Of a DNA stretch of 64,000 bases, positions 25,534-55,404 are shown one piece after another. The notes under the pieces are model-generated. The model ran no database searches. It was not told where the DNA came from and saw only the letters and a list, made by a program, of their open reading frames with translations. The stretch is from Ptychodera flava. Its lineage: Eukaryota; Hemichordata; Enteropneusta; Ptychoderidae. Made by a program: the position numbers and the translations under genes. Location of the stretch: the NCBI RefSeq assembly GCF_041260155.1, contig NW_027248277.1:20054872-20118871 (forward strand), in the 5' to 3' direction. Position 1 is the stretch's first letter; every line of letters begins with the position of its first letter.

Positions 25534-25539
25534 TATATA
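25534..25539. repeat. Left target-site duplication of the Polinton (TATATA)
   Basis: TATATA here and at 42,524-42,529 flank the element exactly. Six base pairs is the usual duplication of Polinton integrases. The flanks join smoothly when compared with the same intron in locus C (AAAAAATATTTGTAAGTG near 59,365). Confidence 0.8.
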
Positions 25540-26061
25540 AGTAGTAATAGGTCGCACCGTAACGGGCGGATTTTGGCAGGAGGTTCAGTGAGGTTCACGG
25601 TTTTTTGGCAGGAGGTTCAGGAGGTTCAGTGAGGTTTACAAATTTTTGGCAGGAGGTTCAGTGAGGTTTGAAATTTTGGCAGGAGGTTCAGTGAGGTTTC
25701 CGATTTTGGCAGGAGGTTCAGTGAGGTTCGGGGGATTTTGGCAGGAGGTGGTTTGAGGTGCCGCAGGCGCCGACGATTTGGACCCCCTAGCCCAGTAAAA
25801 ATTTGCATTTTTTGCAATTTTTGGCAGGAGGTTCAGTGAGGTTTCAGATTTTGGCAGGAGGTTCAGTGAGGTTTCGGGGTTTTGGCAGGAGGTGGTTTGA
25901 GGTGCCGCAGGCGGCGACGATTTGGACCCCCTAGCCCAGTCAAAATTTGCATTTTTTTTTTTTGCAATTTTGGCAGGAGGTTTAGTGAGGTTCGGGGATT
26001 TTGGCAGGAGCTGCAGTAAGTAGCCGCAGGCGCCGATGTTTTTGACACCCTAACTCGGTGT
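25540..26061 (+). repeat. Left terminal inverted repeat of the Polinton, with tandem subrepeats
   Basis: About 520 bp. After a unique 30-bp tip it is built of many copies of TTTTGGCAGGAGGTTCAGTG with variable short spacers. These are interleaved with two or three copies of a second module (GCCGCAGGCGCCGACGATTT, then GACCCCCTAGCCCAGT). The right end mirrors this pattern. Confidence 0.9.
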
Positions 26062-28081
26062 AACTCTGCAGTGTTGTTCATTTGAAGGCCTACGTATTAA
26101 GCTGTGATTGGTCGTATGCGTCATGCTTGACGACTATAAAAGGCCTTATCTTGGCCCGATCCACTCAAAACAAATATTTGGCAGTGAGGTGAAGGATCGA
26201 TAGCAATAGCCTTGAGTCAACCCACACACATTGAACCTGCTGAGCCCAGCCTGTCCGGCTTCAAGGACGTCTGTGATGTGCGCCATCTATCGACAGCTCT
26301 AACTGCTTCTTTCGACTTTGCTACCTGTTCTCATCTGTTCCTTCTGCTCGGGCTAACATGGAATGGGATGATTCTCCCGAATTCACTGCAAGTCAGTGGG
26401 AAATAATTGACCGTTTGGAGAGAGAGCATGTACCACAGTCACCGAGGGATAACACTGTAAGTATTCATCATAATATTTAGAGTGTGTAAAAATCTACGCT
26501 GATCTGTTGTTCCGTACACAGTACCCGGCTGCTTGGGGTAGTACGTAATGCAATTGCAATACACATAACGTACCGACAGGGCATTTATGCATAATATTTA
26601 CTATTGCAAAAAAAAAAAACAACAACAACAACAACCAACAGCATATTTACTCGTTATTGTTCTTCTAAATTCAGTGAATTCGTAAATGCTATTTGTGAAT
26701 ATCATATCCGAAAATATTCTCTGAGTTACACATTCTCTTACGCGTACGTAATTTACTGCAGTGTTGGCCATGCAACTCCCGCGCGCTGTGATTGTCGTCT
26801 GCGTATTGTGTATACGGACGCTATCCATGAACACCCTTTTTAGTGCATTTGAAAATAAAATACCTTTCAACTCTTCAGATTTATTGTTGAACTAAGACAG
26901 AATAATGTTTAGAATCAGTTGGCATGCTTTAAAATGCAAGAAAACGATAAATATTGAATGCATGCAATCTTTTTGTTTTCGTGTGCGGCCGCTATGACAC
27001 AGTGCATTGTGAGTTCGCACGTAATAACTTGCCGCATTCTCCCACCGATGATCATGTTCGCTCTTTCTATTTCGACCTGTGAATTGTTCAAGAAACACGA
27101 CTACACAAGTCTTGAAGCTCATGTCAAAAGGAATTTCGATGAAATAGTTTGAAATCTGTACAGTATGTGAGTACAAGTTGGAACTGCGATAACTCGATCG
27201 CATCGCACATAATATCAGTGTACAGTGAGCGCGAACGCGATGCGGCTTGACCCGATAATTAGTTTAGGGGTCAACACTTAATTGTTACAATGTTTCAACT
27301 GCTTGATTCATAATCGAGGGCAGCTGTACTTGTAATTACGGGTACACGTGTTCTCTTGTAATTGAGGAGGAGGGGTAATGCATCGTTTTTCGGACCATTA
27401 GAGACAACTATGTAAACAGTTAAGACTAATGACGCTCGACGGATGATCTGTTCCACTGTATAGGTGTTGGTCTGTGATGAAAGCGATGAGGCGGACTGTC
27501 AGTCAGAGAGGTCTGCTGAAGACGTTGGTCCTCGGGCATCACCCGTACGTACACTCAAGTAAGTGGTTGGTATTGTTCAAACACAATAATTAAAAACCAT
27601 TTGCATTTTAACACCTCGTTTTTCAAAGTGCAGTTGATGTTGTGAGATGTAACTTTGTAATTAAATTATCCCGAATTTTTCTTTTATGTCAAGTAGTAGT
27701 CCGAATAAATCTGTTTATTTCATTTTAGCTATCCGAACGTCACCTCCGAGTCGGAGTCGTCAGCGCCTAGAGACGAAGCTCCCTCACCTTCTCAGATATG
27801 CAGGTATAGTTTCTTAAATTCACTTGTGTGATAATATTTGATGTTATTACAAAGTCAATTACCCGACGTTCTCTGTTGAGTTGTCACCATGCATTGTTCA
27901 TAAAACATATTGCTAACATTTTCTATTTCCCCCCCCCTGTTAAACAGAACCGCTATTCAATCACCTGCACAGACAGGAAATGATCAATTACCGGATGAAG
28001 AGGGCTCTTCCCATGCTAAAAGATCGAAGTAAGTTTTTTTTTTTTAAATATCAATTGATGGTTACTCAACCCAAAGTATCT

Positions 28082-28166
<85 letters not shown>

Positions 28167-28359
28167 GAAGATGATGATAAAAAAGTATTTCTAATATGAA
28201 TAAGAAATAGTCCTAATCTTTTTTTTTTTTCGCTTTCAGGTTTGCTACTGACTCTGTAGCAACACCATTGCTCTCAACACATCGACAGCCATCCCAGAAT
28301 TTGTAGAGGCCTTACAAGAAATCACTAACCGTCCACTGACGCCTACACCGGTACCCTCG
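26062..28359 (+). promoter_or_regulatory. Polinton left promoter and probable spliced leader of the polymerase gene
   Basis: An inverted CCAAT box (TGATTGGTC, about 26,105) precedes a consensus TATA box (TATAAAAGG, 26,135-26,143). Downstream, short acidic open stretches are each bordered by AG acceptor-like and GTAAGT-like donor sites at about 26.4, 27.5, 27.75, 28.0 and 28.2 kb. This suggests several small leader exons before the polymerase region; introns are known in some animal Polintons. A run of about 27 AAT triplets lies at 28,084-28,166. No other gene was recognised. Confidence 0.5.
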
Positions 28360-31300
28360 GTGAGTAATGATAAAAGTGATCTATGTTGTCACCGTTGCAA
28401 ACGACATTTTTCGTGTCAAGGCACTTTGCGTCGTCACATTTCCAGTGTCCATGATGAAAAGCACAGTTATTCATGCTCATACTGTGACAAGTCTTTCAAT
28501 CGAAAGGACAACCTGGTACGGCACGAAACCAGCGTTCATCGTTCGCCAACACACCCCAGTACTTCCCAGGGTACACGTCGCTCACCACCTAAACAACAGC
28601 GCTTTCCCTGTCCGACTTGCCATCGTCCTTTTACGCGTAAAGACAACATGCTGCAGCACATGAAGGCCGCACATGCCAACACAAAGGCAAAGCACAGCTG
28701 TGACGTATGCGACATGAGCTTCGTCAGAAAGTCACATTTCATCAGCCATAGCAAAATCCACAAGAAGCTATGCAAACCTATGTCATACAAGTGTGCGAGA
28801 TGTCGCTATGCTTTTAAGTCCTTTCAGGCATTAAAGGCACACAGTCACCGTGATCACGTACCTGAAAGTCCACCTCTTGCATCGTCGTCCTCCTCTTCGA
28901 CATGGTCATCATCGTCAGATGAAGAAAATGCATCAATATCAGTTCAGAGGGGTGGTGGTGAGAGTGGGCATATCTCTCTGTCAGGCAGTCACCTTGAACA
29001 ACAATTGCCTGTTGACCTGATTGAGCCCATTTTTGGAGAAGATGAACCATCAGACCTTGCCCCCACATACAGAGAAAACTGGTCCAATATCAGGTCCAGG
29101 CATCGGGAAGGGAATCCCCTGCTAGATGTCTACAATTTTAGACTGACGGGTGGATTCCAATTAGATGACCTGAAGATTTTCCTGAACATGGTTCATCAAA
29201 GGCAATCCACCCAGTATAAAGTCAACTTTGCACTTGGTTTTATCATGCGCCATGTCGAAACCGATCAACTCAGATACTTCTATCCATCACAGAATAATCA
29301 TCTGTTAGACACGCCTTTCTTGATTCGGAATCAAGATGATTTGGTCGACCTTCTGGATCGCCTACAAGATATTGATATTATGGAAGACATCAGACAGAGC
29401 AGACCGAACACTAAATGGGTCATTGAACTCATTACCAACATTACCATTTATATTGTGAAAATTGCAAAACACAGTATCGGATGCCACAACACCACAAGCT
29501 TGCCTGTAGCATTAACGGCATGTCGCAGTGTTGTGGCACTGGTTAACAACCCACATACCAACCGACCATACAGCGACAATATGTGTTTCTTCCGTTGCCT
29601 TGCACTGGCAAAGGGTTATGAGGAGACACGTTTGGAAGTGGCTGCAGTCAACTACGTAAAGCAATTTCTTCAACAGCAGGAACGTTTAGCTGGAGACGAA
29701 TTTGAAGGTGTCTCCTTTGACGATATTGCAGACTTAGAATTTATCTTTGATATCAATATCGAAGTGTGTGAACTTTGTATGGAGGAGGAGGAAGAAGGGT
29801 CTCCCAGCACAACAAGAATCGTCAAACACCTTGTCAAATCAGAAAGAAAATACAGCCATACCATGTACATTAACCACCATCATGGTCACTTTTCATACAT
29901 TAGTGATTTCGACCATTACGCCGAATCATTCAAGTGTGCCTACTGTGAGAAATTATTCGATCATTTAGGACACCTACACAGACACGAGAAAACCTGTACG
30001 AAACTGACCAGACACAAGTTCCCAGGAGGCACTTTTCAACTCGCTCCCACCATTTTTGATTGCCTTGCAATGATGGGAATATCTGTGCCAGAGCACTTGC
30101 ACATTTAACCATACAGGGCTACATTCGATTTCGAGTGTTATCTGAACAAAGAAAATATGATTCCATCCGATGGCGGTAAACTGTGTCTTGAAGCAAAGCA
30201 CGAATTGTTGAGCGTCAGTATATGCAGTAACGTACCATCGTTTGATGAACCGCGCTGTTTCACCTCTGAAGGAGACCCACAGCATTTGGTATCTGACATG
30301 CTGGGCTACCTGAATACCATCAGTCGTCACTGCTTCGAAATAATGAAGAACAACTTTGCATCCATTCTAACCGAGTTACAGGCGAAGATGGCAGGCGAAG
30401 GGGTAGCAGATGATGATGAGAAACATCCCCTGAGTAAGCTGAAGCGTCATTTTATGAGGTATCTGAAACAGCTGCCTGTTCTTGGCTTCAATTCGGGGCA
30501 CTATGACCTGAACGTAGCAAAACCGTACCTTTGGCCAGAACTGCTACAGCAAGACGAAGTAAAGTTCGTTATGAAGAGGTCTGCGGATTATCTGGTGTTA
30601 GAGACAGACACACTACGCTTTCTTGATATTGCAAATTACATCTCGCATGGCTGCAGTTATGCTCAGTTCTTAAAAGCGTACAATGCAGGTGAAGAGGATT
30701 CTTTCCATACGAGTGGATGGATTCGCTCGAAAAGCTGAAGGAAACATCCCTTCCACCACACTCAGCTTTCTACAGCAGCCTGAAGGCAACAAATATCAGC
30801 ATGGAAGATTATGCATTTTGTCAGCAGGTCTGGGAAACACGCCGAATGACCAGTTTCAGAGACTTCCTCGTCTGGTACAACAACAATGACGTGAAACCCT
30901 ATCTCCGAGCCATTGACAACATGGTTGCCTTCTACAGAGAAAGAGGAGTCGATCCTTTCAAAGATGCAGTTTCTTTACCCGGTGTGACTATGCGATACCT
31001 TTTTGGACAACTTCCAGCCGACGTCAACTTCTCTCTAATCAGCGAGCAAGATAGAGACTTATATGATACTTTCAAATCCAATATCATCGGTGGTCCGAGC
31101 ATTATTTTCCACCGTTACCAAGAGGCAGATAAAACCACCATTCGTGATGGCAAAACCTGCAAGAAAATAATTGGCTATGATGCAAATGCCCTATACCTTT
31201 GGGCACTGATGCAGGAAATGCCTACAGGTTTTCATGTCAGAAGAAAGGCCAGTGAAAATTTCAAACGGAAATGGTCTGAACCCATGGCAGTGGAGTGGCT

Positions 31301-32828
31301 GGAGTTTGTTGCTAACAAAGAAAACATCAGTATTCAACATAGGGGCAATGCAAGAGAGCGGCGTCTTGGCAGTCGTCAGCTTCCCGTTGATGGTTTTTGC
31401 GAAACTACCAACACAGTATACCAATTCCATGGCTGTTTCTGGCATGGCCATAACTGTTCCCTTAACAGAGGCAAAGAAATCAATGAGGTCCGAGGAAAAC
31501 CCATGCAGGAACTCTATAGGGAGACTATGAACAATGACAAATACATCAGGGACATGGGGTTCCACCTGGTAACCCTATGGGAATGCCAGTACCTTGACAT
31601 GAGACGTGCTGATGTTGACCTAAAAGCCTTTCGCCGGCGAAGACACGACAGATATTTTGACAGGTCTTTCTTCTTACAAGAGAAGGACATAATTGAGGCT
31701 GTGCGTAATGGAGGATTCTTTGGAATGGTAGAGTGTGATATTGAAGTGCCGCCACATCTCAAAGAACACTTTTCTGAGATGTGTCCAATCTTTAAGAATG
31801 TGAACATCTCAAGATCGGACATAGGAGAGCACATGTTTTCATCGCAGCAGAAAAAGACCAGCTCAGATCCCCTCGTCGATCACTGATTGGTAGCCTGCAT
31901 GGTGAGAAACTTCTCCTTATTTCACCCCTTCTAAAGTGGTACCTTGAACACGGCCTTGTTGTGAAACGGATACATCAAGTTATCGAGTACACTCCAAAGT
32001 CCTGTTTCAAAAAGTTTGGCGAATCTGTATCTGAGGCCCGTCGACAAGGAGATGCTGATGCCTCTAAGTAGTCTGTTCTGGGCGATACGATGAAACTCCT
32101 TGGCAACAGTGCATACGGGAAAACTTTGATGAATAAGGACAAACATCTTGATGTGAAAATCTGCGGTATTGTCGAGGCGAGCACCCCTTTTCAGAAGAAT
32201 CATCGACTTCTCCGATGACACCTATGAAGTGTCTTCCTTAAAACGTACTATCACCATAGACCAACCCATGCAAATTGGAATATTCGTTTACCAGTATGCC
32301 AAGCTACGCATGCTACAGTTTTACTATGACTTCATGAGCAAGTATTTTGACAGGAGTGACTGGCAGTATGTTGAAATGGACACAGACTCTGCCTACATAG
32401 CCATCGCTGCAGACACACTTCACAGCTTGGTCAAGCCCGAAATGCAGGCCCTATATGAAGCTGAACGCCACATGTGGTTTCCCCGACCAACCCATTTTCA
32501 ACATGACAAGAGGACACCTGGCCTCTTCAAGGTAGAGTGGCAAGGTGAAGGCATCATCGCCCTGAACAGTAAATCATATTACTGTTTTGGCGGTGAGAAG
32601 GATAAATTTTCCAGCAAGGGAGTGAGCAAGAAAACTAACAACATCACCAAAGACGTGTACCTTGATGTCCTGACAACCAGATGTCCCAAAACTGTCACCA
32701 ACAGAGGATTTCGTCTAGAAGGGATATGCATGTACACCTACCGACAGTTGAAATATGGGTTCACCTACCTTTACATTAAGAGAAAAGTTCTAGAAGATGG
32801 TGTATCCACTGTACCCTTGGATTTGTAA
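28360..32828 (+). pseudogene. POLB: Polinton POLB: C2H2 zinc fingers plus protein-primed type B DNA polymerase (fossil)
   Basis: The region opens with about five C2H2 fingers (for example CCHRCKRHFSCQGTLRRH), a Ser/Asp-rich linker and a conserved domain of unknown function. Exonuclease motifs follow (TFDFECYL; LGFNSGHYDLN), then an endonuclease-like segment with YQFHGCFWHGH, and polymerase motifs A (YDANALYLW), B (LGNSAYGKT) and C (MDTDSAYIA). This is the replicative polymerase that copies the element by protein priming. The fusion of fingers to POLB is seen in many animal Polintons. The gene is broken. Confidence 0.92.
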
Positions 32829-33766
32829 TGTGATGGTGACTGGCTGTTTGGAATTTGAAACTTGTCTGTAAATTCAGAATTTTTATCTGTACGCGAGGAA
32901 CCCAATAATAAGTTCTTTTGTTGATCATCTTTCAAAACAAAATGTTCCAGTCTCATGTTATATTCTGATAATGTTTAAAAGCAGTTCAATTCGTTCATAT
33001 TTTATATGCCCTTAAAACTAATGAAAAAACTAAAGAACAACAACAACAAACAAAACGGCGTATAATTATAAAGAAGAAAACAAATGTGACAAATTAACAG
33101 TGTTTGAATTGGATATTGTATTGAGAAGTGAAATTTATTGCCTTTCAAATGTTGGGTGTGCAAAATTTTGTTAAAAGTTGGATGTATTAAACCGAACACA
33201 ACTTTTTAAATTTGAAATGAATCAGCGGCTGGTTTGTATTTGTTCATTGGTGTTTGTGTATATATGTGTTAGTCAAAACAAGTTGGTGTGTATGTGTGGC
33301 CCCTTTGCCCCAAAGGCCAAAAAGTGGGCCCCTCTGCCCCGGGGGCCACTTGAAAGCAGTTCTCCTGACCACTGAAGTGTATCACTCTTTCATTTGTTAT
33401 GTCCCTGCAAGAAACTTTGAGGTCCCTTTGCCCCACGGGTCCCCTTTTGCCCTCCCGTTGTCGAGAAATGAGATCATCCAATGGGATTACTTTCCTGTAT
33501 AAGTTTGTGATGTTTGCAGTCTGACATTCATTTGACGTGATGGGTCTCATTCTGCAAACACTGCTGAAGTTGATCATCAATAATCGGGATTTTTCAAATC
33601 CAATGTTCTTTCTGTATTTATGTGTGTTGCCGTACGTCATATATGATAAATTTTTCAAAAGAAAGCCTGTTCTGTATCACAAAAGTGTTTGATATAAGCA
33701 GGGAAATTGACTGAAGGAAAAAGTAAACAGTCACACTGAAGAGCTGACCGGCTGACTTGATGTGCC
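32829..33766. other. Polinton spacer between POLB and ATPase genes
   Basis: No gene recognised. It contains a GC-rich inverted repeat (GTGGCCCC at 33,296-33,303 with GGGGCCAC at 33,342-33,349) and C-runs around it, unlike the AT-rich neighbourhood. It could hold the promoter of the downstream gene group. Confidence 0.45.
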
Positions 33767-34087
33767 ATGCCACGAGTTCGAAAGAACTGTCCTTACCCAG
33801 GCTGTCATGCAAAACACTTAGTCAGACTGGCAAACCATCTCACACAAGTGCATAACATTGAAGACAAAGTGGAGAGGCATAGATTGTTGAAACTAGCCAG
33901 GCAATCTGACTCCCATCAGTTAATGTGCCAGCTGATACGAATAATTCATGCTTTGTCCGAACAACATCAACCCATTCAATCATGGATGTCAGACTTCAAC
34001 ATCCTTTCACTGCTCTCATATGTGGACCAACACAATCAGGCAAAACCGAATTTGTTAAGCGGCTGCTCAAGGAACGGGAAGCCATGA
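33767..34087 (+). pseudogene. Small Polinton zinc-finger protein (fossil part)
   Basis: Starts MPRVRKNCPYPGCHAKHLV and has one C2H2-like finger (CPYPGC...LANHLTQVH). A short finger protein directly before, and overlapping, the packaging ATPase is common in animal Polintons. A DNA-binding or packaging role is a guess from position. Confidence 0.6.
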
Positions 34088-34623
34088 TTTTCCCTGCTCC
34101 AGAAAACATTGTTTGGTGCTATGGCGAATACCAATCTGCCTATGCAGAACTCACTGCAAAGATTCCAGGCATTCGTTTTGTTGAAGGCATACCTGAAGAC
34201 TTGGACAGTATGTTCTCTCCCCGTCAGTCCAATTTATTGATCCTTGATGATCTGATGTCTGAAACTGGTAACGACAAGAGGATTGCCAATATTTTCACCA
34301 AGGGTTCTCACCATCGCAATCTGTCCGTGATGCTTATCTTGCAAAATCTGTTTCATCAAGGTAGAGAGACCCGAACCATGAGTTTGAATTCACATTATCT
34401 GATCCTGTTCAAAAATCCGAGAGATGGATCACAAATCACACACCTGGCCAAGCAAATGTATCCTGGAAACACGCGTTTTATTCAGGAAGCCTTTCTCGAT
34501 GCTACCCGAGAACCCTACGGCTATCTTCTTATTGACCTGAAACCAAATGCTCCTGAAGTCACTCGTCTGCGTTCCCACATTTTCCCCGGAGAGACTACCT
34601 TCGTTTATGTCAGAAAAACATAA
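33983..34623 (+). pseudogene. ATP: Polinton DNA-packaging ATPase, FtsK/HerA (A32) family (fossil part)
   Basis: Starts MDVRLQHPFTALICGPTQSG; the Walker A motif is GPTQSGKT and Walker B is LLILDDLM. Between them lies WCYGEYQSAY, and a sensor-like region (LSVMLILQNLFHQG) follows, as in poxvirus A32-like ATPases. The family pumps genome DNA into capsids. This part reads through at about the normal length (about 210 residues). Confidence 0.9.
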
Positions 34624-34643
34624 AACAGATGTGACTGAAAGAT

Positions 34644-34980
34644 ATGTCATCATTCATCATGTCTCAGCGAATGAGAAAGCATGCCCACTTTCTCTCTGTG
34701 TTAGCCAGAGGCAACCCAAAGCAACAGAGGGGAGTTATTGAAGGAGCCAGTAACGAACTCATTCACTGTCTTTGCGAGTGCTGTCTTAACATCTTGAGGG
34801 GCAGTGTTCCACTGACAGCAGGTCAAAAGAAGAAACTGAGCAAATACAAACATCAACTGCGCACATTGACAGATAGAAGGTTAAAACATCCAAGAAGAAG
34901 AAAATACTGGTCCAGAAAGGAGGATTCCTCTCTGCTGTTTTAGGACCTGTTCTCTCCGTGCTTGGTAGTCTGCTGTTTAA
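34644..34980 (+). pseudogene. Small basic Polinton protein (fossil part)
   Basis: A short region encoding a Lys/Arg-rich protein (QKKKLSKYKHQLRTL; RRLKHPRRRKYW) with an upstream Cys-rich helix (LIHCLCECCLNILRG). It lies where animal Polintons have a small conserved protein after the ATPase. The function is unknown; a core or DNA-condensing protein is possible. Confidence 0.55.
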
Positions 34981-35796
34981 GTGACGGTCACCATGCCCAT
35001 GGAACACGCCAAGAAGATGGCACTGGTGCCGCAGGAATTACTCAATACAATACAACTTCAGCAGAATCAGACGACACATCCTGTCACCAAGGTATTGTCC
35101 TCATTAGACCAAGAGATGCAGCAGATCTTAGAAAGAACAGATATAGCTGATGATGAAAAAGCTAAGCTATACCAACAGACTCTTCAGCAGTACAGGGCTT
35201 TCATCGACAAAAGGAGGGAACCTGTGAAAATCAGCATCCTTCCATCTGAGATGAAAACTGATGATTCGGCTGCAACTTCTTCTTCCATATCTTCATTGAA
35301 CCTGAGCGCGGAAGGGGAAAGGGTTTATGATGAAAAGCCAGCAGATGGGGTAGAGTTGGATGTCATCGAAAGTGTACCAAAATCTATGAAGAAAAAAGCA
35401 AAACTTCTCCTGGAGAAAATGAAACAGAATGATCAAATTGACTGGAACGAGAAAGGGGAACTGATGTTTGATGGTAGTCCTGTGCCAGGTACCCACATGG
35501 TAGATCTTGTCAATGATGTTTTACGTCGAAGGAAAACTTTCACTCCCAGGGGATGGCAACAGTTTGCACAGGTATTGTCTACCATGAATGTTCCACAAGA
35601 TCTGGTAGGAAACAGAGACAGATGGAACTGGATCCAGTCTTTGAAGAAATCCAAAAGACTACTTCACATGGACCACAGTGATGGTGGATCGGAAATGTTT
35701 ACTGAACAGCCGTTTGCCAAAAAGAAGAAGGTGGCTCCTGTTATTTCAACAACAAGAAGACCTCGACATCGTCCAAAGAGTTGGATTGACTTTTAA
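34981..35796 (+). pseudogene. Conserved Polinton protein of unknown function (fossil part)
   Basis: About 270 residues. The N-terminus is a likely coiled coil (VLSSLDQEMQQILERTDIAD, then DEKAKLYQQTLQQYRAF). A Ser-rich acidic linker follows, and the C-terminus is basic (KKKKVAPVI, RRPRHRPKS). The DDEKAKLYQQ type motif recurs in proteins of many animal Polintons between ATPase and integrase. No enzymatic motif is visible; a scaffold role is speculation. Confidence 0.65.
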
Positions 35797-35906
35797 AACA
35801 ACAAGGCCCGTTCCGCTGCTGATCATTTTACAGGAGGTTGTGGTCATGGAGTGTTGTCCCCCTTCTCTGTCTGTAAATGATGTTCTCAAACGCGTAAGGT
35901 GTCTGT

Positions 35907-37009
35907 GTGCCTGCTGTTCTGGGTCCATCGTCATCAAACATGAAACATGTGACCAAATCGACGGAGTTGGATCAACATCTCAGCGAGGTATTTTACGATC
36001 CAGGTCATTCCGCAAGTTTTGGAGGAATCGATGCTGTTTACCGTGCTGCAAGAGAAAAGGGGGTGAAAATAACCCGTCAGCAAGTGAGGGAATGGATGCA
36101 ACGTCAAGACACTTACACACTGCACAAGCCTGTGCGGTGGAGGTTTCCAAGGGCTAGAGTAATTGTTGGTGGTATAGATCAACAGTGGCAAGCTGATCTG
36201 GCTGATTTAAGTTCACTGGCAAAATACAACGGAGGATACCGATACATCCTAACATGTATTGACATCCTGTCCAAGTATGCCTGGGCCATTCCCTTGAAAG
36301 ATAAACGTGGAACCACTTTGGTGTCAGCCTTCCAACAGATTTTTAAAAGTGGACGAAAACCAGAGAAACTGCAAACAGACCAAGGTAAAGAGTTTGTCAA
36401 CCACATATTTCAAAAACTACTGAAGAATGAAGGCATTCATTTCTTCACCACTGGAAATGAAACAAAAGCATCAGTGGTAGAGCGTTTTAACCGCACCCTG
36501 AAGACTAAAATGTGGAAATACTTCACCAGAAACAACACCCTGAACTACATATCCATACTTCCTCAATTGATGCACTCCTACAACAACACCTGGCACCGCA
36601 GCATCAAGAGAAAACCTGCTTCTGTGAACGAGACCAATGAAAAAGAGGTGTGGGACACACTGTACAGTGATTTTGACTCCAAAGCAATCAAATTCAAATA
36701 CGACATTGGTGAGCAAGTGAGAATCAGCAAAGCCAGACGAATGTTCAAGAAGGGCTACCTTCCAAATTGGACTGAAGAAGTCTTCACCATATCAGGACGG
36801 ATCCTGATCGACCACCCTTGTACAAGTTGAAAGATTACGATGGTGAAGTGTTAGAAGGGACATTCTATGAGCAAGAACTGCAAAGAGTGGTTAAGAAACA
36901 CGACGATGTATTTAGGGTGGAAAAAATACTCAAGACGAGAAAGAGAAGGGGAAAGAAAGAATACTTGGTCAAGTGGTACGGTTGGCCTGCCAAGTTAACA
37001 GCTGGGTGA
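35907..37009 (+). pseudogene. INT: Polinton integrase with C-terminal chromodomain (fossil part)
   Basis: A retrovirus-like DDE integrase. An HHCC-like or winged N-terminal region leads to the catalytic core, with Asp in QWQADLADLSS, Asp in LQTDQGKEFVNH and Glu in ASVVERFNRTLKTK. After a linker comes a chromodomain (VEKILKTRKRRGKKEYLVKW). The enzyme inserts the element with 6-bp duplications, matching the TATATA repeats. The region is broken. Confidence 0.9.
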
Positions 37010-37076
37010 CGGATTTAGCAAAGGTATAACAAGGACATACTCTGGCCCAGCACCACACTGGAAAGTAACAGTCACC

Positions 37077-37768
37077 ATGGCTGAACACCCCTTCTTCATG
37101 ACATTACCTAGCAACGCATCCATGGAAGTTTTCCCAGACAATAAAGTGACAGGCTACACTGTGAAATTACCAAAGCACGTTTCCCTCCAGGGTAATTGGG
37201 AAGTGGCCTTGACGGAAATACATTACCCTTTCCTTGGTACAACGTGGTCGAGGGCAGAAACTTCCTTGTGTATGATGATCAGGACCATAGAAAAACACTT
37301 GTCAAAATACCTGCAGGTTACTATGATGATTTTGGAAGTATACTGACTACTCTGAGAGAGCGAGGTTTACCCGATGATGTCCTATTGACTTTCGACACAG
37401 TGTCCAGGAAAGTAACCGCTGATGTGAGTGAGGGTACCAGTCTCCACTTTCTTCCAGGTTTGGCTGAAATCATGGGATTTTATCCCAATACCATATTACG
37501 GCAGAAGAGTGATGCCCCCTTCATATTCAGTGTTCGAAACCTCTCTTCTCTCTATGTGTATTGCGATCTGGTGGACGACCAGTTGGTTGGAGACACCTTT
37601 GCACCACTGTTGAGAATAGAAAATGTGGAAGGGGTCCACGGACAGATGATCAACCACACCTTTCACACTCCATACTTTCTTCCCCTGAGAAATCGCGAAT
37701 TTGATACAGTAGAGGTCTACATAAGAGACGACACTGTCAGAGAGTACCATTCCAGAGTGGGAAAGTGA
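37077..37768 (+). pseudogene. Polinton minor capsid (penton-like, single jelly-roll) protein (fossil part)
   Basis: Starts MAEHPFFMTLPSNASMEVFP and continues TGYTVKLPKHVSLQGNWEVA, the typical opening of Polinton minor capsid proteins. Beta-rich sequence and a DTVEVYIRDD ending fit a single jelly-roll. It forms capsid vertices in the predicted virion. It lies directly before the major capsid group. Broken. Confidence 0.82.
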
Positions 37769-37820
37769 TCGTGACACTAGCCTTCAGAAAGCGACGCCCT
37801 ACACTGTTGTAGCCTGAACC

Positions 37821-38250
37821 ATGCCTTATAGACGTAAAATCTATGAAAGCAACCCAGCCACATACAGGAAGTTTTATGTGGATCAGGTGGGAAATGGAGC
37901 ATCGTTCCAGGGAGCAGCTGTGCAGCGAGGATATGGCTTAGGCGGTCTGTTGGGAGGTCTTTTCCGTGCAGCCACACCGCTGCTGAAACAAGGAGCCAAA
38001 GTCCTAGGGAGACAGGTGTTAAAAACAGGACTCAATATTGCAGGTGATGCACTCAGTGGACGTAACGTGAAGCATTCTGCCAAAGGCGACTGGTAAAAGC
38101 TGGAAAAGACCTAATGGCAGGAAGGGGTTTGAAACAGTTTTTCTCCCCTGGTGGCAGTGGTGGTATAAAACGCAGAGCGCCACGCAGAAGAGTCATTTCC
38201 TCCAAAGCAAAGCGACAGAGAAGATCTCTTGACATTTTTGACTAACATGG
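37821..38250 (+). pseudogene. Small glycine-rich Polinton protein (fossil part)
   Basis: Starts MPYRRKIYESNPATYRKFYV. It has a glycine-rich amphipathic stretch (GLGGLLGGLFRAATPLLKQG) and a basic C-terminal region with RRAPRRRVISSKAKR. Such proteins between minor and major capsid genes have been compared with adenovirus core or membrane-active minor proteins; the role here is inferred from position only. Confidence 0.6.
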
Positions 38251-38259
38251 CATTTCTTC

Positions 38260-39577
38260 ATGAACACTCCTGCGAATGTACAAAGAGTGAACTTGACTTG
38301 TTCACAGTTCCTCCACTCAGACCAGTGTGGAAGAGGACAATGGGAAGAAGTGCATCCCCTGACACACATAGTGGAATCGGGACCCATCGAATTTGTGATT
38401 TCGGGCTCGGGGGAAGACTACATAGATTTGTCCTCAACACTCCTTCTGATCAAGGCTAAGATCACAAAAGCTGATGGTAGTAACCTGGGTGCAGATGCAG
38501 CAGTGGGACCTGTCAATCTGTGGCTCCATTCACTGTTCAGTCAAGTGGATGTACACCTCAATGGCAAAATGATATCCAACCCCTCCCCTACTTACCCATA
38601 CCGAGCGATGATGGAGACGTTGTTAAATTATGGGAAGGAAGCCAAAGGCACCCATATTGGTGCTGCCCTATTCTTCAAGGACTATCACTTGAAAATGGAC
38701 GAAGTGGACCCTACTAAAGAAGGTGGGGAAGCAAACAAGGGACTGAAAAGCAGATATGCCTTCACATCTGGCAGTCAAGTTGTCGATATGGTTGGACCCA
38801 TCCATTCGGATCTCTTCTTTCAACCCAAGTATCTAATGAATGGTGTTGAATTACGTCTCAAACTCAACAGAAGCAAGAATGCCTTCTCTCTTGTGAGCTC
38901 TGCAGAAAATCCAAACTTCAAAGCAGTGGTCACAGAAGCTACAGTACTGGTCAGAAAAATTAAACTCAGTCCATCGGTACAGCTGGGCCATGCAGAAGCT
39001 TTAAAGCAGGGACCATCCAAGTATCCCATACATCGTTGTGTGATGAAAGTTCTGTCCATTTCTGGAGGTACAATGTCCTTCAACAAAGATCACATCTTTT
39101 TGGGACAGCTACCTAAACGTGTGGTCTTGGGTCTGGTGGACAACAATGCCTTCAATGGTTCATACAAGAAGAACCCTTTCAACTTCAAACATTATGACAT
39201 GACATCACTCGTCCTCAATGTCGGCGGAAAACAAATTCCAAGCAAAACCTCTGAAAATGGACTTCACCAGGGCCGGGGGTCAATCGTTCCTTATGGCCTA
39301 CTACTCCCTCTTTACTGGAACTAACAAAATGGGTCGGGATGAAGGCATCGATATCAATCGCTATGAATACGACAACGGATACACACTGTTTGCCTTTGAT
39401 CTCACACCGGACTTGTCTGCTGACGGAGGGCATTTGAACCTGATCAAAGAGGGCAACCTTGGCATAGAACTGCAGTTCAGACAAGCCTTGCCAAATACTG
39501 TGAATTTACTCGTGTATGGCGAGCTGGACAACGTGATCGAAATTGACAGAGATCGCAACATCCTGTTTGACTTTTGA
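38260..39577 (+). pseudogene. Polinton major capsid protein, double jelly-roll (fossil part)
   Basis: About 440 residues in all. Conserved segments include GPIEFVISGSGEDYIDLSST, VNLWLHSLFSQVDVHLNGK, TYPYRAMMETLLNYG and, near the C-terminus, GYTLFAFDLTPDLSADG and LLVYGELDNVIEID. This is the standard Polinton hexon-like capsid protein. Broken. Confidence 0.9.
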
Positions 39578-39609
39578 ATACGTGTCCTTCAACACTCGAA
39601 TAAGAAAGC

Positions 39610-40107
39610 ATGGACACCTTAGAGCTCAGGGAGATCTTGACTGGGGACAGGTACGCAGCATCTTCTTTTGTTGGGGTGATGGCCTCTGACAACTTGCCCA
39701 AGACAAGACTGAAATCATATCCAGCTGCTTTTGTTGCCAATGTGGACCCCAGCACCAAACCAGGAAAACATTGGGTTGCTTTCTACTTTGTGGATAGCAA
39801 TAATGGCGAATATTTCGATTCCTATGGACGTCCGCCCATCAAGACACCTTTCGAGACATTCCTGAAAAGAAATTCTCTTGACTGGATCTATAACAGGCAG
39901 AGACTCCAGGGACCCCTTTCTTCTGTGTGTGGACAGTACGTTCTCTATTATCTGCTGCATCGGTGCCGGGGATGGTCCATGCCGAACATTGTGAAGCAAT
40001 TCACTGAAGATTTGACTTTCAATGACTTTCTTGTCAATGATTTTATCGAAAAACTGACAGGTGTTGATTTTGACGTTTATGATGTTGACTTTTTAAAGAA
40101 GCGTTAG
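39610..40107 (+). pseudogene. PRO: Polinton adenovirus-type cysteine protease (fossil part)
   Basis: About 165 residues with the adenain/Ulp1-like layout. The catalytic His is in GKHWVAFYF, an acidic residue and an FDSYGRPP motif follow, a Gln lies in the middle part, and the nucleophile is in SSVCGQYVLYYLLH. The enzyme matures capsid precursors. This part looks whole and of normal length. AATAAA follows at about 40,175. Confidence 0.9.
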
Positions 40108-40588
40108 AATTTATCGTTCACTTTTCATTGCAAGTTAGCTGTTCTTTGTATATTTGCACTGGTGTTAACATTCAAATAAACTTGACAAGTTGTTCCATTG
40201 AAAACATTACCAGTGTGTATCATTTTTCCAAGGGTGGGTATAGCGGATTAGGATAAGGGCAGTTAAACAAAATAAATTAATCATCCACACTTCTCTTTCT
40301 CTCACTCAAAGACTGTAGACTGACAAGTTTTTCATCTTTAAGTCTTAACAGCACATTTTATTTTCTTAAATTCAAAACTTATAACACAAACATGAAATAG
40401 AATACAACAAGTTGTAAGTGTCCCGTACTGTTCTTGTACTCCTGAAGAAAGTCGGAGAAGAAACTTCAAGTAATTCATTGCATGCGTAACCTTTCAAAAA
40501 AGAGAACATCAAAAATAGCAACTCAAGCAAAAGGTGTGGCAAATAACTTTGAACGTTGAATGATACAATTGAAAACATTGCCGAAATT
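40108..40588. other. Polinton spacer between convergent genes
   Basis: AT-rich, no gene. It holds the polyadenylation-like AATAAA of the plus-strand group and, on the minus strand, the 3' end of the WW/PC4 gene. Confidence 0.5.
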
Positions 40589-41650
40589 CTAACAACTAGA
40601 AGATCCATTTGTTTCACACATGGACTCGATAATGTCATTGCAGAGAACCATTCCGTACACGGTAATATTGTCCATCAAGGCTTCAAAGCATCCCTCTGGA
40701 TCATCGGCCCATCGATAACACAGTAAGTGCAGCAATTCATCAAGGTCAATCAATCCGAAGTCCATTTGAAGGTTACAGATCTCTGCAACTTCCTGGACAG
40801 ATCTTTCCACGACAGACATGTCGATCCGTTCGGCAGCAGCTCCAAAGTATTTGGAAATCACTTCCCTCTGTCCGGCAGGTGTGCAACCATAATGTAGACA
40901 CTCGTGTTCCCTCTGGGACAGATAGTCATGTTGACATCCCTCACAGTTTTCACTCACAAGTTTATCAACTTCCTGTGAGATAAATTTCGCATAGATGTAT
41001 TTCACCAGCTTGCGTGCCACTTTCCTATCCAGGTCATTGGGGATGGGGGGTGGAGTGTACTCTGGAATAGAATGAATTAACTACAGGTCAACATCTGGAC
41101 AGCATCATCAACTCTCCCTACGATACATTTTAACTGACACCACTCATCCAGTCTTAATGTAATACCTTTCTTGGTTGGTATCAACTGACCAGTCTTCTCC
41201 TGCTTAAAGAACTCACGAATGCCAACATAGGCACTTCCCTTGTACATCTTGACACTAACAAGCCTAGCAGATGTCTCCATTGAAGAAAGTTGAAATCGAA
41301 ACTCCTTCTCACCTGTTTGAGTGTGACATCACTGGTGACGGGTCTCGAGTGCACTTGGAGTACAGTTGCGGCTGGCTATCTGTCACATCTGTACTTTGAG
41401 AATCGAACAGAAGGGGTGTTGATGGTGGTTCTACGGCAGGCTCAGGAAGGGTGGGACTGTGGTTGCCAGGGGAACTGGCTGTAGGCGCATCAAAACCTTC
41501 TGGAACACCAGGCATTGACCATCGGCTTTCATTGGTTTTGATATTGAAGTAATAGGGCCTCTCTACCCTAGCTGAATAACATTTGCGCCATCCCTGCTGG
41601 CACTGGCTCGGTGTAAGGTCACAAGTCGCCATAGCTGTATGCATCTGCAC
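40589..41650 (-). pseudogene. Opposite-strand Polinton gene: WW domain, PC4-like domain, Cys-rich C-terminus (fossil part)
   Basis: The N-terminal part (41.3-41.65 kb) has a WW domain, GWRKCYSARVERPYYFN... ending SRWSMP. From memory it is closest to the WW domain of PCIF1, which binds the RNA polymerase II tail. A Pro/Ser-rich linker follows. The middle part (about 41.08-41.28 kb) reads VSVKMYKGSAYVGIREFF and GITLRLDEWCQLK, the fold signature of the ssDNA-binding coactivator PC4/SUB1. The C-terminal part (40.6-41.05 kb) has ENCEGCQHDYLSQREHECL, a Cys/His motif seen in many uncharacterised proteins of aquatic animals. GT/AG-like borders between the parts suggest a spliced gene. Nuclear transcription control is the likely role, by inference. 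Confidence 0.7.
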
Positions 41651-41947
41651 TTGTCAAAGGTCAGAGCTCGAATGAGGCCCTGAGTGGCCCTGATCTCTTT
41701 TAAAGAGTGTGCTCATTTGCATAACTTCAAATCAACGAATCAAAACTCTTAAATTCAAATACGCCAATCAGAGGAAGACTCTGAGTCCTCCCATCGTGCT
41801 TTGCAGCATTCAAACCAGCCAATCATCGTCTACTTCAATATATCAGCCACATTACGAATTTTCCCAGACTTAGGGGATCAACATCTGCTTCACAATCGAC
41901 TGTCACCTCCCTGCATTATACTACCCCCCCCCCAAAAAAGGGTCAAA
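41651..41947 (-). promoter_or_regulatory. Probable promoter of the opposite-strand Polinton gene
   Basis: Upstream of the WW gene (minus sense) are a TTTAAAAG box (about 41,696-41,706), a perfect octamer ATGCAAAT (41,715-41,722, read on minus) and two CCAAT boxes (about 41,764 and 41,817). These resemble an RNA polymerase II promoter. The set mirrors the CCAAT plus TATA arrangement at the other end of the element. Confidence 0.45.
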
Positions 41948-42523
41948 CTCCTGCCAAACTTGGCAAATTGCTTATTTTGACTGGGCTAGGGGGTCCAAAT
42001 CATCGGCGCCTGCGGCACCTCAAACCACCTTCTGCCAAAACCCCAAAACCTCACTGAACCTCCTGCCAAAATCTGAAACCTCACTGAACCTCCTGCCAAA
42101 AATTACAAAAAATGCAAATTTTGACTGGGCTAGGGGGTCCAAATCGTCGGCGCCTGCGGCAACTCACTGAACCTCCTGCCAAAACCCCAAAACCTCACTG
42201 AACCTCCTGCCAAAATCTGAAACCTCACTGAACCTCCTGCCAAAAATTTGCAAATTGCTAATTTTGACTGGGCTAGGGGGTCCAAATCGTCGGCGCCTGC
42301 GGCACCTCAAACCACCTCCTGCCAAAATCCCCCGAACCTCACTGAACCTCCTGCCAAAATCTGAAACCTCACTGAACCTCCTGCCAAAATTTCAAACCTC
42401 ACTGAACCTCCTGCCAAAAATTTGTAAACCTCACTGAACCTCCTGAACCTCCTGCCAAAAAACCGTGAACCTCACTGAACCTCCTGCCAAAATCCGCCCG
42501 TTACAGTGCGACCTATTACTACT
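41948..42523 (-). repeat. Right terminal inverted repeat of the Polinton
   Basis: About 575 bp, the reverse complement of the left end with one extra module. Complementary units (CACTGAACCTCCTGCCAAAA) and the GGGTCCAAATCGTCGGCGCC module alternate as on the left. The outer 240 bp match almost perfectly, the inner part less so because the number and order of subunits differ. Confidence 0.9.
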
Positions 42524-42529
42524 TATATA
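42524..42529. repeat. Right target-site duplication of the Polinton (TATATA)
   Basis: Direct repeat of 25,534-25,539, immediately after the terminal ACTACT of the element. Confidence 0.8.
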
Positions 42530-42559: not shown

Positions 42560-44231
42560 ACCTCTAATTACCGGATGCGCTATTTTGCGGGTTGCGGGCT
42601 GCGGGTTGCGGGCATAAAAAAATGCGTGATTTTCGGTATCATTTTCGCTAGTAGTTAGAATGAATGCTAAAAGAGTATCTAGATGTATTTGTTTATGGAA
42701 TAAAAGCCGTGAACTTCTTGAATAATGCCGTTATTTCAGCTTACATCTGGTAAAGCGCCACCAACGTCAGAATAGTCCATTCCCATCCAACATTCGCCGT
42801 TGCACAGCGCACTGCAGATCGAAGCTTTCGAAATGATATGACTGAACACGGATGAGTTATAATATGAACACAAGACATATTTCACAACAACTCGCTATAT
42901 TAACGTTTTATGTTATGATTAGGATGGATAGTTTAAAAGTAAGTTTCGGATCGTTGACAGCACAGATGAACTGGGCGATGAACTTCAGTTCGTTGAAACT
43001 CGACACGCCTAATAATTTGTTACTTTTTCATAGAATGCCATGCCCTTCTCACACTTCAGATTAGTTCAACCGCCGATAAAAGCACAATTTTCAGAATCGT
43101 TTTCAATGCCGTTTAAAATTATTTTATTGTGGTGAACACGATAATAGTCCTAGGAAACTTTTCATAGTCACGCTGGATCAAATGCATATGGAGCGACTAT
43201 CATGCTGCAGGTGCAAGTCATAGAATATGTTCATGATATTAGGAGATACACAATTATTGAGAGCTGCAGAACACAAACTCATCCAAAAATATTCCTATTA
43301 GATCGATTCCTGAAAATAAGTCAACGCACCGACGTGTTTTTCCCGCTGAAATTCTCTCGTAAAATGTTAGCGGAATGTCGTTCTCTGTGGTCGTGACCTC
43401 GGTTGAACCGAAACGGCAAAGTAAGCTAAGTCCATTGTCGTACGTCTTTTTCTTTTAAAGATTTCATGAAAAATACACGGCATTTAAATACACAACACTT
43501 CTACGCTTTTTGAAGTCAAATCTTTCCTTACACATTGCATTTAAGTAGGCATTGTTTAATTTTCTGTATGTGTTGCCCTAGAACCGAATTGTGAATAGAT
43601 GCATTACAAAGAATTTACTTCCTATGGCCTGATACTAGAAATGTAACAATTTTCATTCCGCGATAAGTGGCGACATTTCCGAGGCGCGAATTTTTTTGTC
43701 AGTCTGGTATTATTTCTCACTCACATCCATGGCAAGAAAGAAAAGTGATTTCAGATCCCAAATTATTTGTAATGGCCAGGCAGCTCGGAACAAATAAATT
43801 GGTCCTCGGAATCGCCGCTTTTAGTTTAGCAGATTTTGATTTTTTTTCAGAAACATGACGTATATATTTTCACCCACTTGGTTTGGTCTGTTATAGCATC
43901 TTTAGTCCAAAAAAATCAATTTTACAGCATATATGTTTTCAACAGCCTTCAAATGTACAGTATTATGTTAAAATACACAATATGGATATGTTGTGTTTCA
44001 TTAATTTTAACCATCTTGACCTGATGTTGAAATATGGATGTGAATATGGACTTGGCAGGAAAGGGATACTGTACGATAGACCTGATCATGATTATTGATA
44101 ATAGACACCTTCTAAAGGTTTTATTTCTTATATACTAATGCCATATTACATATATTAGAAATCTAGCCATAATTCTAAAAACCCGCAGCCCGCAACCCGC
44201 AGCCCGCACTTTAGCAGATACCTCTAATTAC
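42560..44231. mobile_element. ~1.65-kb element with (TGCGGGY)n inverted ends
   Basis: Near the left end is TGCGGGTTGCGGGCTGCGGG (from about 42,586); near the right end is its complement (44,181-44,208). A 12-bp direct repeat ACCTCTAATTAC flanks the whole (42,560-42,571 and 44,220-44,231). The interior is AT-rich with no recognisable transposase. A non-autonomous DNA transposon, perhaps hAT-like, is the best reading; the duplication length is not typical, so the exact boundaries are open. Confidence 0.55.
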
Positions 44232-45122
44232 AGCGAAAACGGAGTCAGCGTGGACTCTCTGTTGTGCAGCGCAACAAAGTAAACGCAGCCACAGACTTTT
44301 TTTCAGACAGAACACCCAAACTAAACGCCATCAAAGGCACACCGCCTATTCAATCAATCCCACAAATCAAACAAAAGATTCAGTTTGTATTCTTATTGTA
44401 ACAAAAAGTTCCTCATAATGAGTTGAGAATAAAACCAAAATTATGGTAAATCCTGTACAGAAGGAGCTTGAACGGCGCAGTATCAAGTTTTTTGCGTCTG
44501 CATACACAAACTTCCTTGGTCAATCGAGGTGGTAGCTTCAGCGAAACTCAGACTGGGACAGCATCTACCAAATAAACATCGCAGCGAGCAGCTCAATTTA
44601 GATTGTTGCCAGTACTGCCATTATTATACACCTTATTATTCGATGCCACCTTCATCACCCTACGTCTATTATAAACGTCTAGATTAAATTCCGACGATAG
44701 CGAGCAAACCGTCATATGACTGTGTGACCGACTCCTCTGCCCCTCCCCCGCACACAACAGCGACTATCCCTAGTGTGTTTTCCACAGACACTGTCCGTGT
44801 TTAGCGTCAGTTGTTTTTCCCGAAGACGGAAACCCTCGCTTCAGTTTCTGAGTTGGACATAATCATTGATAATATTGAAAGTTAACTATTTCAGTTTTTT
44901 GTTGTTCGAATAACGGATATATTTTTCTAACATATCCATGATGAAATCAACACGTTCACAAAAAGTAAATCCCGGTATTAAACGCCAGCACGCCTTTTCA
45001 ATAAAAAATATTTCGTGGCATTTGCTACATTGTCTGTGTGTTTTGTCTGTAAAAACGTCTGTGGCTGCGTTTATTTTGTTGCGCGGCACAACAGAGAGTC
45101 CACGCTGACTCCGTTTTCGCTG
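44231..45122. mobile_element. ~0.9-kb inverted-repeat element (CAGCGAAAACGG ends)
   Basis: The left arm CAGCGAAAACGGAGTCAGCG (44,231 onward, about 70-75 bp with imperfect pairing) returns reverse-complemented at about 45,050-45,122. Both arms contain the TCTCTGTTGTGC/GCACAACAGAGA block and the CAGCCACAGAC/GTCTGTGGCTG block. No transposase was seen. A diverged partial copy lies at 50,850-51,090. CAG...CTG ends would suit a hAT-type MITE, but no clear 8-bp target duplication was found. Confidence 0.7.
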
Positions 45123-45480
45123 TAATATACATACATATAGCAAAATGGGAATAAATTATCTTAATCAAAACGTTTATCAAACATGAACAATGCCGTGAGA
45201 TGATTGAGTGTATAAATACAATGCTCATATGAAAATTGCTAACAATACGACATTAAACTGGTCCAATAATCACTTTCATTCAAGGTCCATGGGACATTTG
45301 AGATTTACAAATTTAAGTAGGACCATCCTGAACCACTGAAAGTTAGTGGTGGTACCTGGTGTCCGGAATGGGTAAGCGTACCCTGCTAGCATGCTACACC
45401 CGTCAGGATTGGTCCCAAAATTGTCTACATATTGTATGAAGTGATACAGTCTATGAATAAGCCGGGAATGCTGTCGCTAA
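45123..45480. other. Unassigned intronic sequence
   Basis: AT-rich sequence between the inverted-repeat element and the minisatellite of locus C. No gene or repeat was recognised. Confidence 0.4.
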
Positions 45481-53180: not shown

Positions 53181-55404
53181 ATGGCTGCTGCTCCTGAATG
53201 CAAGTTTTAGAAGAAATCGGTGAAGATTTCCTGCGTTGTACCATATGTCTGGAGCAGTTCAAGTCTCCTAAAATTCTACCATGTCTGCATACATTTTGTA
53301 GCAGTGTTTAGTCACACTGGTTGAGAAGACTGGATCTCTAAACTGTCCAGAATGTCGACAGCATTATCAGCTTCCTGTTGGAGGAGTGCCAGCAATAAAA
53401 GGCAACTTCTTTATGAGCAATCTGATTGAAATATTCAAGCAACGACTGGAGTCTATGCAGGGAACTGAGATCAAGTGTGAAGGTTGCCGACAGAATACAG
53501 CAACTCACAGGTGTGTGGAGTGCAGATACTATCTCTGTGAAAACTGTGTTAGGGCACATAAAAATCTGCCGCTAACACGTGCACATCAACTGATGACCAA
53601 GGCAGAATATGAAACAGCAAAGTCAACCAGTCTTGTGACACTACAAGCAGTGGAATATTGCAGTGTCCATACTGAGAACAAAATTGAATTCTACTGTGAA
53701 ACCTGTCAGGTACCTGTCTGTACAAACTGCACCATAGTCAAACACCGCATACCAGAACATGTACACAGAGACTTGAAAGATGCAGCAGATGAGTATCTTA
53801 CAGAATTGAAAGCCATGGTTGACAAACTGAAAGTGAAAGAACAGGAAGCTGAAAAGAACAAAACCCTGGCCAAGCAGATACACAGTGATCTTACAGAGCA
53901 GTGCAGCAGAGAAGAAAGGAAGGTGAGAATGAAAGCAGAAGAAATCATCAAGAAAATAAAGAGAGAAGAGCAGAGACTGATAGATGAACTGAAAAACAAT
54001 TACAAAATGAAAATCAAAAGAGCAGCTGCTGATATTGATGAGATGGAATTAAAACATGGTAATATTATGAGTGCAGGCAATTACATAGAGGCAATGATGC
54101 ATCATGGGAATGCTGCTCAACTTCTCTCAACAAAGGGTGATGTCAGTATTCGTATCAAGCAACTGATTACCATGGAAACTACAGACAAAGCTAAACATGA
54201 CTACTTTATATTCACATCACAAGATGAATTCTCTGAGCATGGAATTCTGGGATTCTTGAATCTCGATATGACATTGAAATCTCAAAGTGTACGGTTGAAA
54301 CATTCCAAAACAACTCCTGAAAGGTGACTCTGCAGACTTACTGATCACAACCAGAGATTCCACAGGAAAACAAGTCATCCCAAAACAACAAGTGAAAGCC
54401 AAGGTAAGAAAACCTGGTGCATCATGGGAAGACATCAATGTAGCTGATAACAGAGATGGTACACACAGAGTTACAGTGGCTGGACAATTGGATGGAAAAT
54501 ATCAAGTTACCATGACAATAGGAGATCAACCAATACCAGGCTGTCCTGTCATCATACCTGTCATCAAAGGATTGGTGAAGACCATTGGCAGTCAAGGAAG
54601 TGCTGAGGGACAGTACAGCTATCCCTGGAGTGTGGCCATAAACAAAGACAGAGACATTGTCACTGCTGACACAGACAATAATAGGTTGCAGATAACCACT
54701 AGAGAGGGAACAGTAAAGAAAATTTTGGAATTCAAACAATTTAAGGAACCTTTCACACCATGTGATATAGCTATATCAAGTGATAATACATACTATAGTT
54801 TAGATGACAACAATAAGCAAGTAGTTGTCAGTGATGAGAATGGACATGTCATCAGATACTTTGGACAAAATGAGTTGAAAGATCCATATGGTATTGGGAT
54901 TAGTCCTGTAGATGGCAATGTCTATGTGACAGATATGGTGGGCATTGTGTCAGGGTTTATACACAACATGGTAAGTACCTTAGGTCATTTGGGTCAGAAG
55001 GTAAAGGTCAAGGGCAATTCAATTTGCCCTGGGGTGTAGTCATAGCAACTACTGGAATGGTATTTGTAGCAGACAGGTATAACCAGCGTATCCAGGTATT
55101 CAATGCACATGACCAGTATTTGTATTCCTTTGATTGTCAGAGTGGGGATGGTAAGATGAGATACCCCCAGGGAATAGCAATTGAAAATGATAAATATGTC
55201 TATGTTACTACTGAATACCCTAGTAGTCTATTGAAGTTTGAGAGTAGTGGTAAGTTTGTTTGTCGTATTGATAGTGATAGTGATGGGCTGAACTGCCCCA
55301 CTGGTATAGCACTGACAGATGATGTACCTTGCAGGGTGGTTGTAGCTGATAGGGACAACCACTGCATCAAAGTGTTTGTACCTGTAGTGATAACATCACA
55401 ATAA
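53181..55404 (+). pseudogene. TRIM-C: frameshifted TRIM-NHL copy
   Basis: The ATG at 53,181 begins MAAAPE, but one base is missing soon after (GAATGCAAG against GAACACAAAG) and another in the RING region (TTTTGTAGCAG against TTCTGTGAGCAG), so the RING finger is not read in one frame. From 53,386 to 54,327 a long frame covers both B-boxes and the coiled coil (the latter almost identical to TRIM-A). A further base loss near 54,290 precedes the filamin domain (54,392 on) and another near 54,930 precedes the last NHL repeats (to 55,404). The final stop differs slightly from TRIM-A and TRIM-B (VFVPVVITSQ at the end). It is a pseudogene as written; the coiled-coil identity with TRIM-A suggests recent gene conversion. 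Confidence 0.85.

Follow-up and report, generated by a model that had tools for sequence, protein, structure and literature searches.

According to the available part of PMC8097293, vertebrate Mavericks end in the (AGT)2/(ACT)2 motif, are flanked by a 6-bp duplication and average 16,862 bp in length, and in most of them accessory ORFs flank the core modules. Two further reference points are PCIF1, the WW domain of which is reported to bind the Ser5-phosphorylated CTD of RNA polymerase II (PMC10544176, in part), and PC4/Sub1, described as binding single strands and promoters (PMC9600219, in part). We describe here a minus-strand Polinton gene in which domains resembling both are encoded side by side, followed by a Cys/His-rich tail.

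The gene was found in a 64,000-nucleotide stretch of Ptychodera flava DNA (hereafter the window, meaning the whole stretch that was analysed). Positions 25540-42523 of the window are an integrated Polinton/Maverick of 16,984 bp, a size inside the criterion of about 15-20 kb. The element begins with AGTAGT and ends with ACTACT, that is, it has the same (AGT)2/(ACT)2 termini as its vertebrate counterparts, and the 6-bp target-site duplication TATATA flanks it on either side. Its boundaries and core genes are as follows:

25534..25539, no strand: left target-site duplication TATATA (from the sequence)
25540..26052, plus strand: left terminal inverted repeat, starting with AGTAGT (alignment to the right end; weaker similarity extends to 26083)
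28252-32825, plus strand: presumed polymerase region, in pieces (gene order and motifs)
33910..34620, plus strand: packaging ATPase, A32-like (PF04665, E 7.8e-6 for 33982-34620)
35898..36827, plus strand: rve integrase (PF00665, E 1.4e-13 for 35940-36827)
36999-37765, plus strand: probable penton gene (gene order and motifs)
38242..39574, plus strand: probable gene for the major capsid protein, split over two overlapping frames (assigned by position)
39604..40104, plus strand: probable adenovirus/ASFV-type cysteine protease (weak match to ASFV S273R, 6lj9, E 0.011)
41987..42523, minus strand: right terminal inverted repeat, ending with ACTACT (similarity extends to 41965)
42524..42529, no strand: right target-site duplication TATATA (from the sequence)

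The preliminary description had placed the gene inside a Polinton. The (AGT)2/(ACT)2 repeats, the TATATA duplications, the rve integrase and the packaging ATPase all bear this out, and the host element is a Polinton/Maverick. Its terminal inverted repeats are 89.7% identical across 545 alignment columns and 98% alike over their outermost 278 nt, the duplication being included in both figures; the core genes are interrupted although the outermost repeats are so similar. The right terminal repeat (41948-42500), the one repeat analysed in this respect, contains tandem arrays with unit lengths of about 30 and 144 nt.

The polymerase, penton and capsid labels are ones that we take from gene order and motifs. 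No profile of a polymerase, penton or capsid family in Pfam matched the ORF pieces concerned; the capsid pieces had no Pfam match above the cut-off, the first of them had no PDB match either, and the protease ORF (39604..40104) had no Pfam match. A C2H2 zinc-finger array (PF00096, E 7.8e-17) starts the ORF at 28252-30105, upstream of the polymerase pieces, and within an ORF piece of the polymerase region (30693-31883) one stretch weakly resembles a Vsr endonuclease (PF03852; E 0.0014, short of the cut-off). Every recognised core ORF of the element is on the plus strand, and the two-strand module layout of vertebrate Mavericks is not seen here. One-strand Mavericks are also reported, from Xenopus, in the available part of PMC8097293; the two-strand layout is therefore not defining for all Mavericks. 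Just outside the element, positions 44227-45126 hold a 95-nt inverted repeat, possibly a small transposon, with arms 93% complementary and 710 nt apart. ORFs that look by eye to be of the TRIM/NHL type flank the element on both sides (21526-22485 and 53413-55039).

The WW-PC4-Cys/His gene lies at 41653-40589 on the minus strand, with the protease on one side and the right terminal repeat on the other, and reads towards the protease. Its first ATG is at 41644-41642 and its stop at 40591-40589. In reading order, its parts are the following:

41715..41722, minus strand: octamer ATGCAAAT upstream of the gene (motif count; weak)
41312..41653, minus strand: piece 1, WW domain and Pro/Ser-rich linker (open frame, first ATG 41644-41642)
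41510..41596, minus strand: WW domain, PCIF1-like (PF00397, E 2.5e-7; PCIF1 2jx8, E 1.8e-8)
41080..41328, minus strand: piece 2, PC4 domain, in a frame different from that of piece 1 (open frame and Pfam)
41128..41274, minus strand: PC4/SUB1 domain (PF02229, E 8.4e-16; PC4 4usg, E 1.2e-9)
40592..41080, minus strand: piece 3, Cys/His-rich tail, in the frame of piece 1 (open frame; stop 40589-40591)
40883..40945, minus strand: clustered C-x2-C ... H-x-C Cys/His motif, possible zinc site (from the sequence)

This layout largely agrees with the preliminary description, which had reported a single gene with WW domain, PC4 domain and tail in that order, beside the protease and on the opposite strand. 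The coordinates are correct, and the order and setting are as reported in this one copy. The three parts do adjoin, but they do not form one uninterrupted ORF: the open pieces cover 41653-40592 without a gap, using two frames and switching frame twice. We infer that they belong to one gene and encode one protein. Within its own stretch, each piece is the sole stop-free frame of six and also the best-scoring one. When the bases of the 489-nt tail stretch were shuffled 2000 times, none of the resulting sequences had an open frame among the six. The codon score is positive for the tail only (+12.8 bits; WW piece -8.1, PC4 piece -1.2).

Either the copy is broken or two short introns account for the frame changes. 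GT-AG pairs (at least 28 nt) preserving the open frames number 15 and 19 at the two junctions; two other frame offsets, taken as a control, gave 0 pairs, but those frames contain stops, and this control is hence uninformative. In our judgement, a broken copy or assembly errors are roughly twice as likely as introns. A broken copy is favoured because other genes of the element are interrupted as well, with a frame change in the probable capsid gene (overlap 39203-39321), another in the probable penton gene (37196-37343), and one stop and one frame change in the polymerase region, and because vertebrate Mavericks are reported to be intronless (PMC8097293, in part). Since the copy here is probably broken, any function would be exercised by intact copies at other sites.

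An octamer/CCAAT promoter had also been proposed for the gene. One octamer and two CCAAT motifs do lie upstream of it; as a promoter, however, this combination is weak, with totals of 21 octamers (both strands) and 171 CCAAT motifs in the window.

Both domain assignments of the preliminary description were upheld by profile searches. The WW domain scores 31.0 bits with PF00397 (cut-off 26.9; E 2.5e-7). In a PDB listing of 48 distinct sequences (E up to 1), the PCIF1 WW domain 2jx8 ranks first (E 1.8e-8, 37.7 bits), PRPF40A is the runner-up (E 9.2e-5, 25.8 bits) and members of the Pin1 family score 21.6 bits or less. Judged by sequence, the domain is of the PCIF1 type, as had been proposed, PCIF1 being the closest among solved structures. 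Identity with PCIF1-WW extends to 18 of 33 aligned residues; since the other 15 differ, binding specificity may differ as well. We found no PPxY or PPxP ligand in the 13 other ORF pieces of the element that were scanned; this speaks against such a partner being encoded elsewhere in the element. The linker of the gene itself contains SP/TP sites and its tail opens with a PPxP-type stretch, so the WW domain could possibly bind within its own protein.

The PC4 domain matches PF02229 with 57.7 bits against a cut-off of 25 (E 8.4e-16). PC4/p15 chains are the top three of 7 PDB rows (4usg, E 1.2e-9; 6ycs, E 2.1e-9; 1pcf, E 2.2e-9), and 23 of 58 aligned residues are identical to those of chain 4usg. 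The DNA-binding residues of human PC4 are reported to include K68, F77 and W89, and mutation of W89 to cause loss of DNA binding (PMC9600219, in part). In the alignment, F77 is replaced by Y, W89 by F, K68 by S, K80 by S, K97 by I and R100 by K, while R86 and K101 are retained; at the key DNA-binding sites, aromatic character appears to be kept and the lysine K68 lost. A single-sequence structure model shows three strands and then a helix at low confidence (mean pLDDT 58.5). The best PDB match of this weak model is the phage T5 PC4 homologue 4bg7 (E 7e-3, probability 1.00); at E 0.001 or less, the model had no fold match in the PDB and one in the viral library. These fold matches do no more than point in the direction of the sequence result.

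The tail contains 14 Cys/His within its last 156 residues. Its best Pfam hit stays below the cut-off (E 0.25), and neither the PDB, searched up to E 10, nor PHROG, searched up to E 0.1, gave a match; its model is helical and unreliable (mean pLDDT 46.4). The Cys/His motif noticed in the preliminary description is indeed present at 40945-40883, and may be a zinc site.

We searched for relatives in viral, prokaryotic and phage collections, the negative results of which say little about animals. Protein queries with the tail, the PC4 domain, a capsid piece, the integrase, the ATPase and a polymerase piece retrieved no relative from viral contigs, a single-protein query reaching close relatives only; a DNA pattern of the PCIF1-WW motif had no match in the same contigs. 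A DNA pattern of the Cys/His motif matched one viral contig, a hit we judged to be due to chance, as the contig has phage-like ORFs and the match is broken by stops in the two frames translated. Queries with the tail and the PC4 domain found no relative in genome contigs, nor any in phage records by tblastn. One copy of the gene has thus been seen, and no second copy came to light that would show its three parts travelling together.

The reading best supported by these data, to which we give about an even chance, is that the gene specifies an accessory RNA-polymerase-II-linked, ssDNA-binding cofactor that helps to transcribe the element. CTD binding, ssDNA binding and an effect on transcription would all be properties predicted from the domain sequences, and so would the role of transcription adaptor suggested in the preliminary description. 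In its ancestral form, the gene would have specified a nuclear cofactor of three parts. Its WW domain, like that of PCIF1, would dock on the Ser5-phosphorylated tail of the host RNA polymerase II; the linker, rich in Pro and Ser, would let the PC4 domain, probably dimeric, hold melted DNA; and the Cys/His tail may make one more contact, to zinc or to a partner. Jointly, the three parts would favour or hold the host polymerase on genes of the element itself, the WW-PC4 fusion sitting where the polymerase has just opened the DNA. Several observations support a cofactor: the WW and PC4 matches, with PCIF1 clearly ahead among the listed WW domains; the lack of PPxY and PPxP ligands in the other ORF pieces scanned; the replacements of F77 by Y and of R100 by K, together with the retention of R86 and K101; and the accessory ORFs flanking the core in most vertebrate Mavericks (PMC8097293, in part). 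The two frame changes, the replacements of W89 by F, of K68 and K80 by S and of K97 by I, the weak promoter motifs, the failure to find a second copy and the poor tail model weaken the case.

The main rival explanation is unlikely in our view. The PC4 part may serve the element as ssDNA-binding protein in protein-primed strand-displacement replication, with the WW part doing no more than target the protein or bind a phosphorylated host protein. In favour of this reading, protein-primed replication exposes long single strands. The entry title of the T5 PC4 homologue, the best PDB match of the weak model, names recombination-dependent DNA replication. Furthermore, among the first 18 viral-library matches of the PC4 model, the 13 that are named all come from phages or uncultured viruses, and no other ssDNA-binding domain was reported among the ORF pieces of the element scanned, many of which are without any match. 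However, a PCIF1-type WW domain points to RNA polymerase II, and the gene lies beside the terminal repeat, not beside the polymerase.

We consider it improbable that the gene is a passenger, that is, captured host WW and PC4 sequences now decaying without function. The interruption of the core genes indicates a decay of the whole copy that is not specific to this gene, and each of the three pieces has retained its only open frame of six; the double interruption of the gene and the absence of relatives in the viral scans would nevertheless fit such an origin. Least probable of all, and very unlikely, is a host-directed decoy whose WW domain would occupy the phospho-CTD or whose PC4 domain would titrate melted promoters, damping host transcription: although inhibition of trans-activation and of CTD dephosphorylation is reported for PCIF1 (PMC10544176, in part) and raised PC4 levels have been linked to repression (PMC9600219, in part), the same domains fit activation.

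If the cofactor reading is true, a gene joining a phospho-CTD-type WW domain to PC4 would provide a direct handle on Polinton transcription; if instead the replication reading is true, the gene would supply an ssDNA-binding protein for protein-primed replication. To our knowledge, little is known of how the host transcribes Polinton genes. The combination of WW and PC4 may be new for Polintons. Among the papers listed, one listing being complete for Polinton, none joined Polinton, Maverick or adintovirus with PC4 or a WW domain. Word searches returned no PC4, WW domain or coactivator in PMC11071308 and PMC11071296, and no PC4 or WW domain in PMC8097293 and PMC4028283. The earlier statement that the architecture is undescribed in Polintons thus agrees with the literature searched, an adintovirus description falling outside that coverage.

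Multiple PC4 genes are also reported from some bivalves. In the Manila clam, 62 gene families, PC4 being one of them, are reported to have copy numbers three or more times those of the other genomes compared, and the available part of PMC5499747 ties the expansion of families in general terms to adaptation. Mavericks are reported to make up 1.69% of a hard clam assembly (PMC8905726, in part). We tentatively suggest, while holding it somewhat unlikely, that Polintons of one animal lineage carry their own RNA-polymerase-II adaptor, a WW-PC4-Cys/His fusion assembled from host-type domains, and that by amplifying they seed hosts with PC4 genes, the Manila clam expansion being at least partly Polinton-borne. 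Extra bivalve PC4 genes may then be Polinton cargo; should such genes prove to lie within Polintons, a share of the clam expansion would be mobile-element cargo. The present finding makes it testable whether the Manila clam PC4 expansion is partly Polinton-borne.

Compared with known systems, the gene resembles the accessory genes of Polintons/Mavericks in lying outside the core genes and beside a terminal repeat (PMC8097293, in part), and differs from them in that no WW-PC4 accessory gene was found in the literature searched. With PCIF1/CAPAM, its best solved WW relative, it shares an N-terminal WW domain followed by a linker; in the Polinton gene, however, PC4 comes after the WW domain, and there is no methyltransferase match, none of the three pieces having a Pfam match to an m6Am methyltransferase domain. 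The PC4 homologue of phage T5 (4bg7) and the PC4-like proteins of phages likewise present a PC4 fold in a virus, but their hosts are bacterial, and we know of no WW domain in them. The bay scallop has several AiPC4 genes, with two PC4 domains in three of five, as a further bivalve case of multiple PC4 genes; their products are described with PC4, low-complexity and zf-PARP regions, and the available part of PMC9223095 does not mention a 'WW domain'. Finally, the Polinton domain belongs to the same family as human SUB1 and yeast Sub1 and follows the same strand-strand-strand-helix order in its low-confidence model. It departs from these PC4/SUB1 proteins in having F and S at the equivalents of W89 and K68, in having a WW domain before it and a Cys/His tail after it, and in being encoded by a mobile element.
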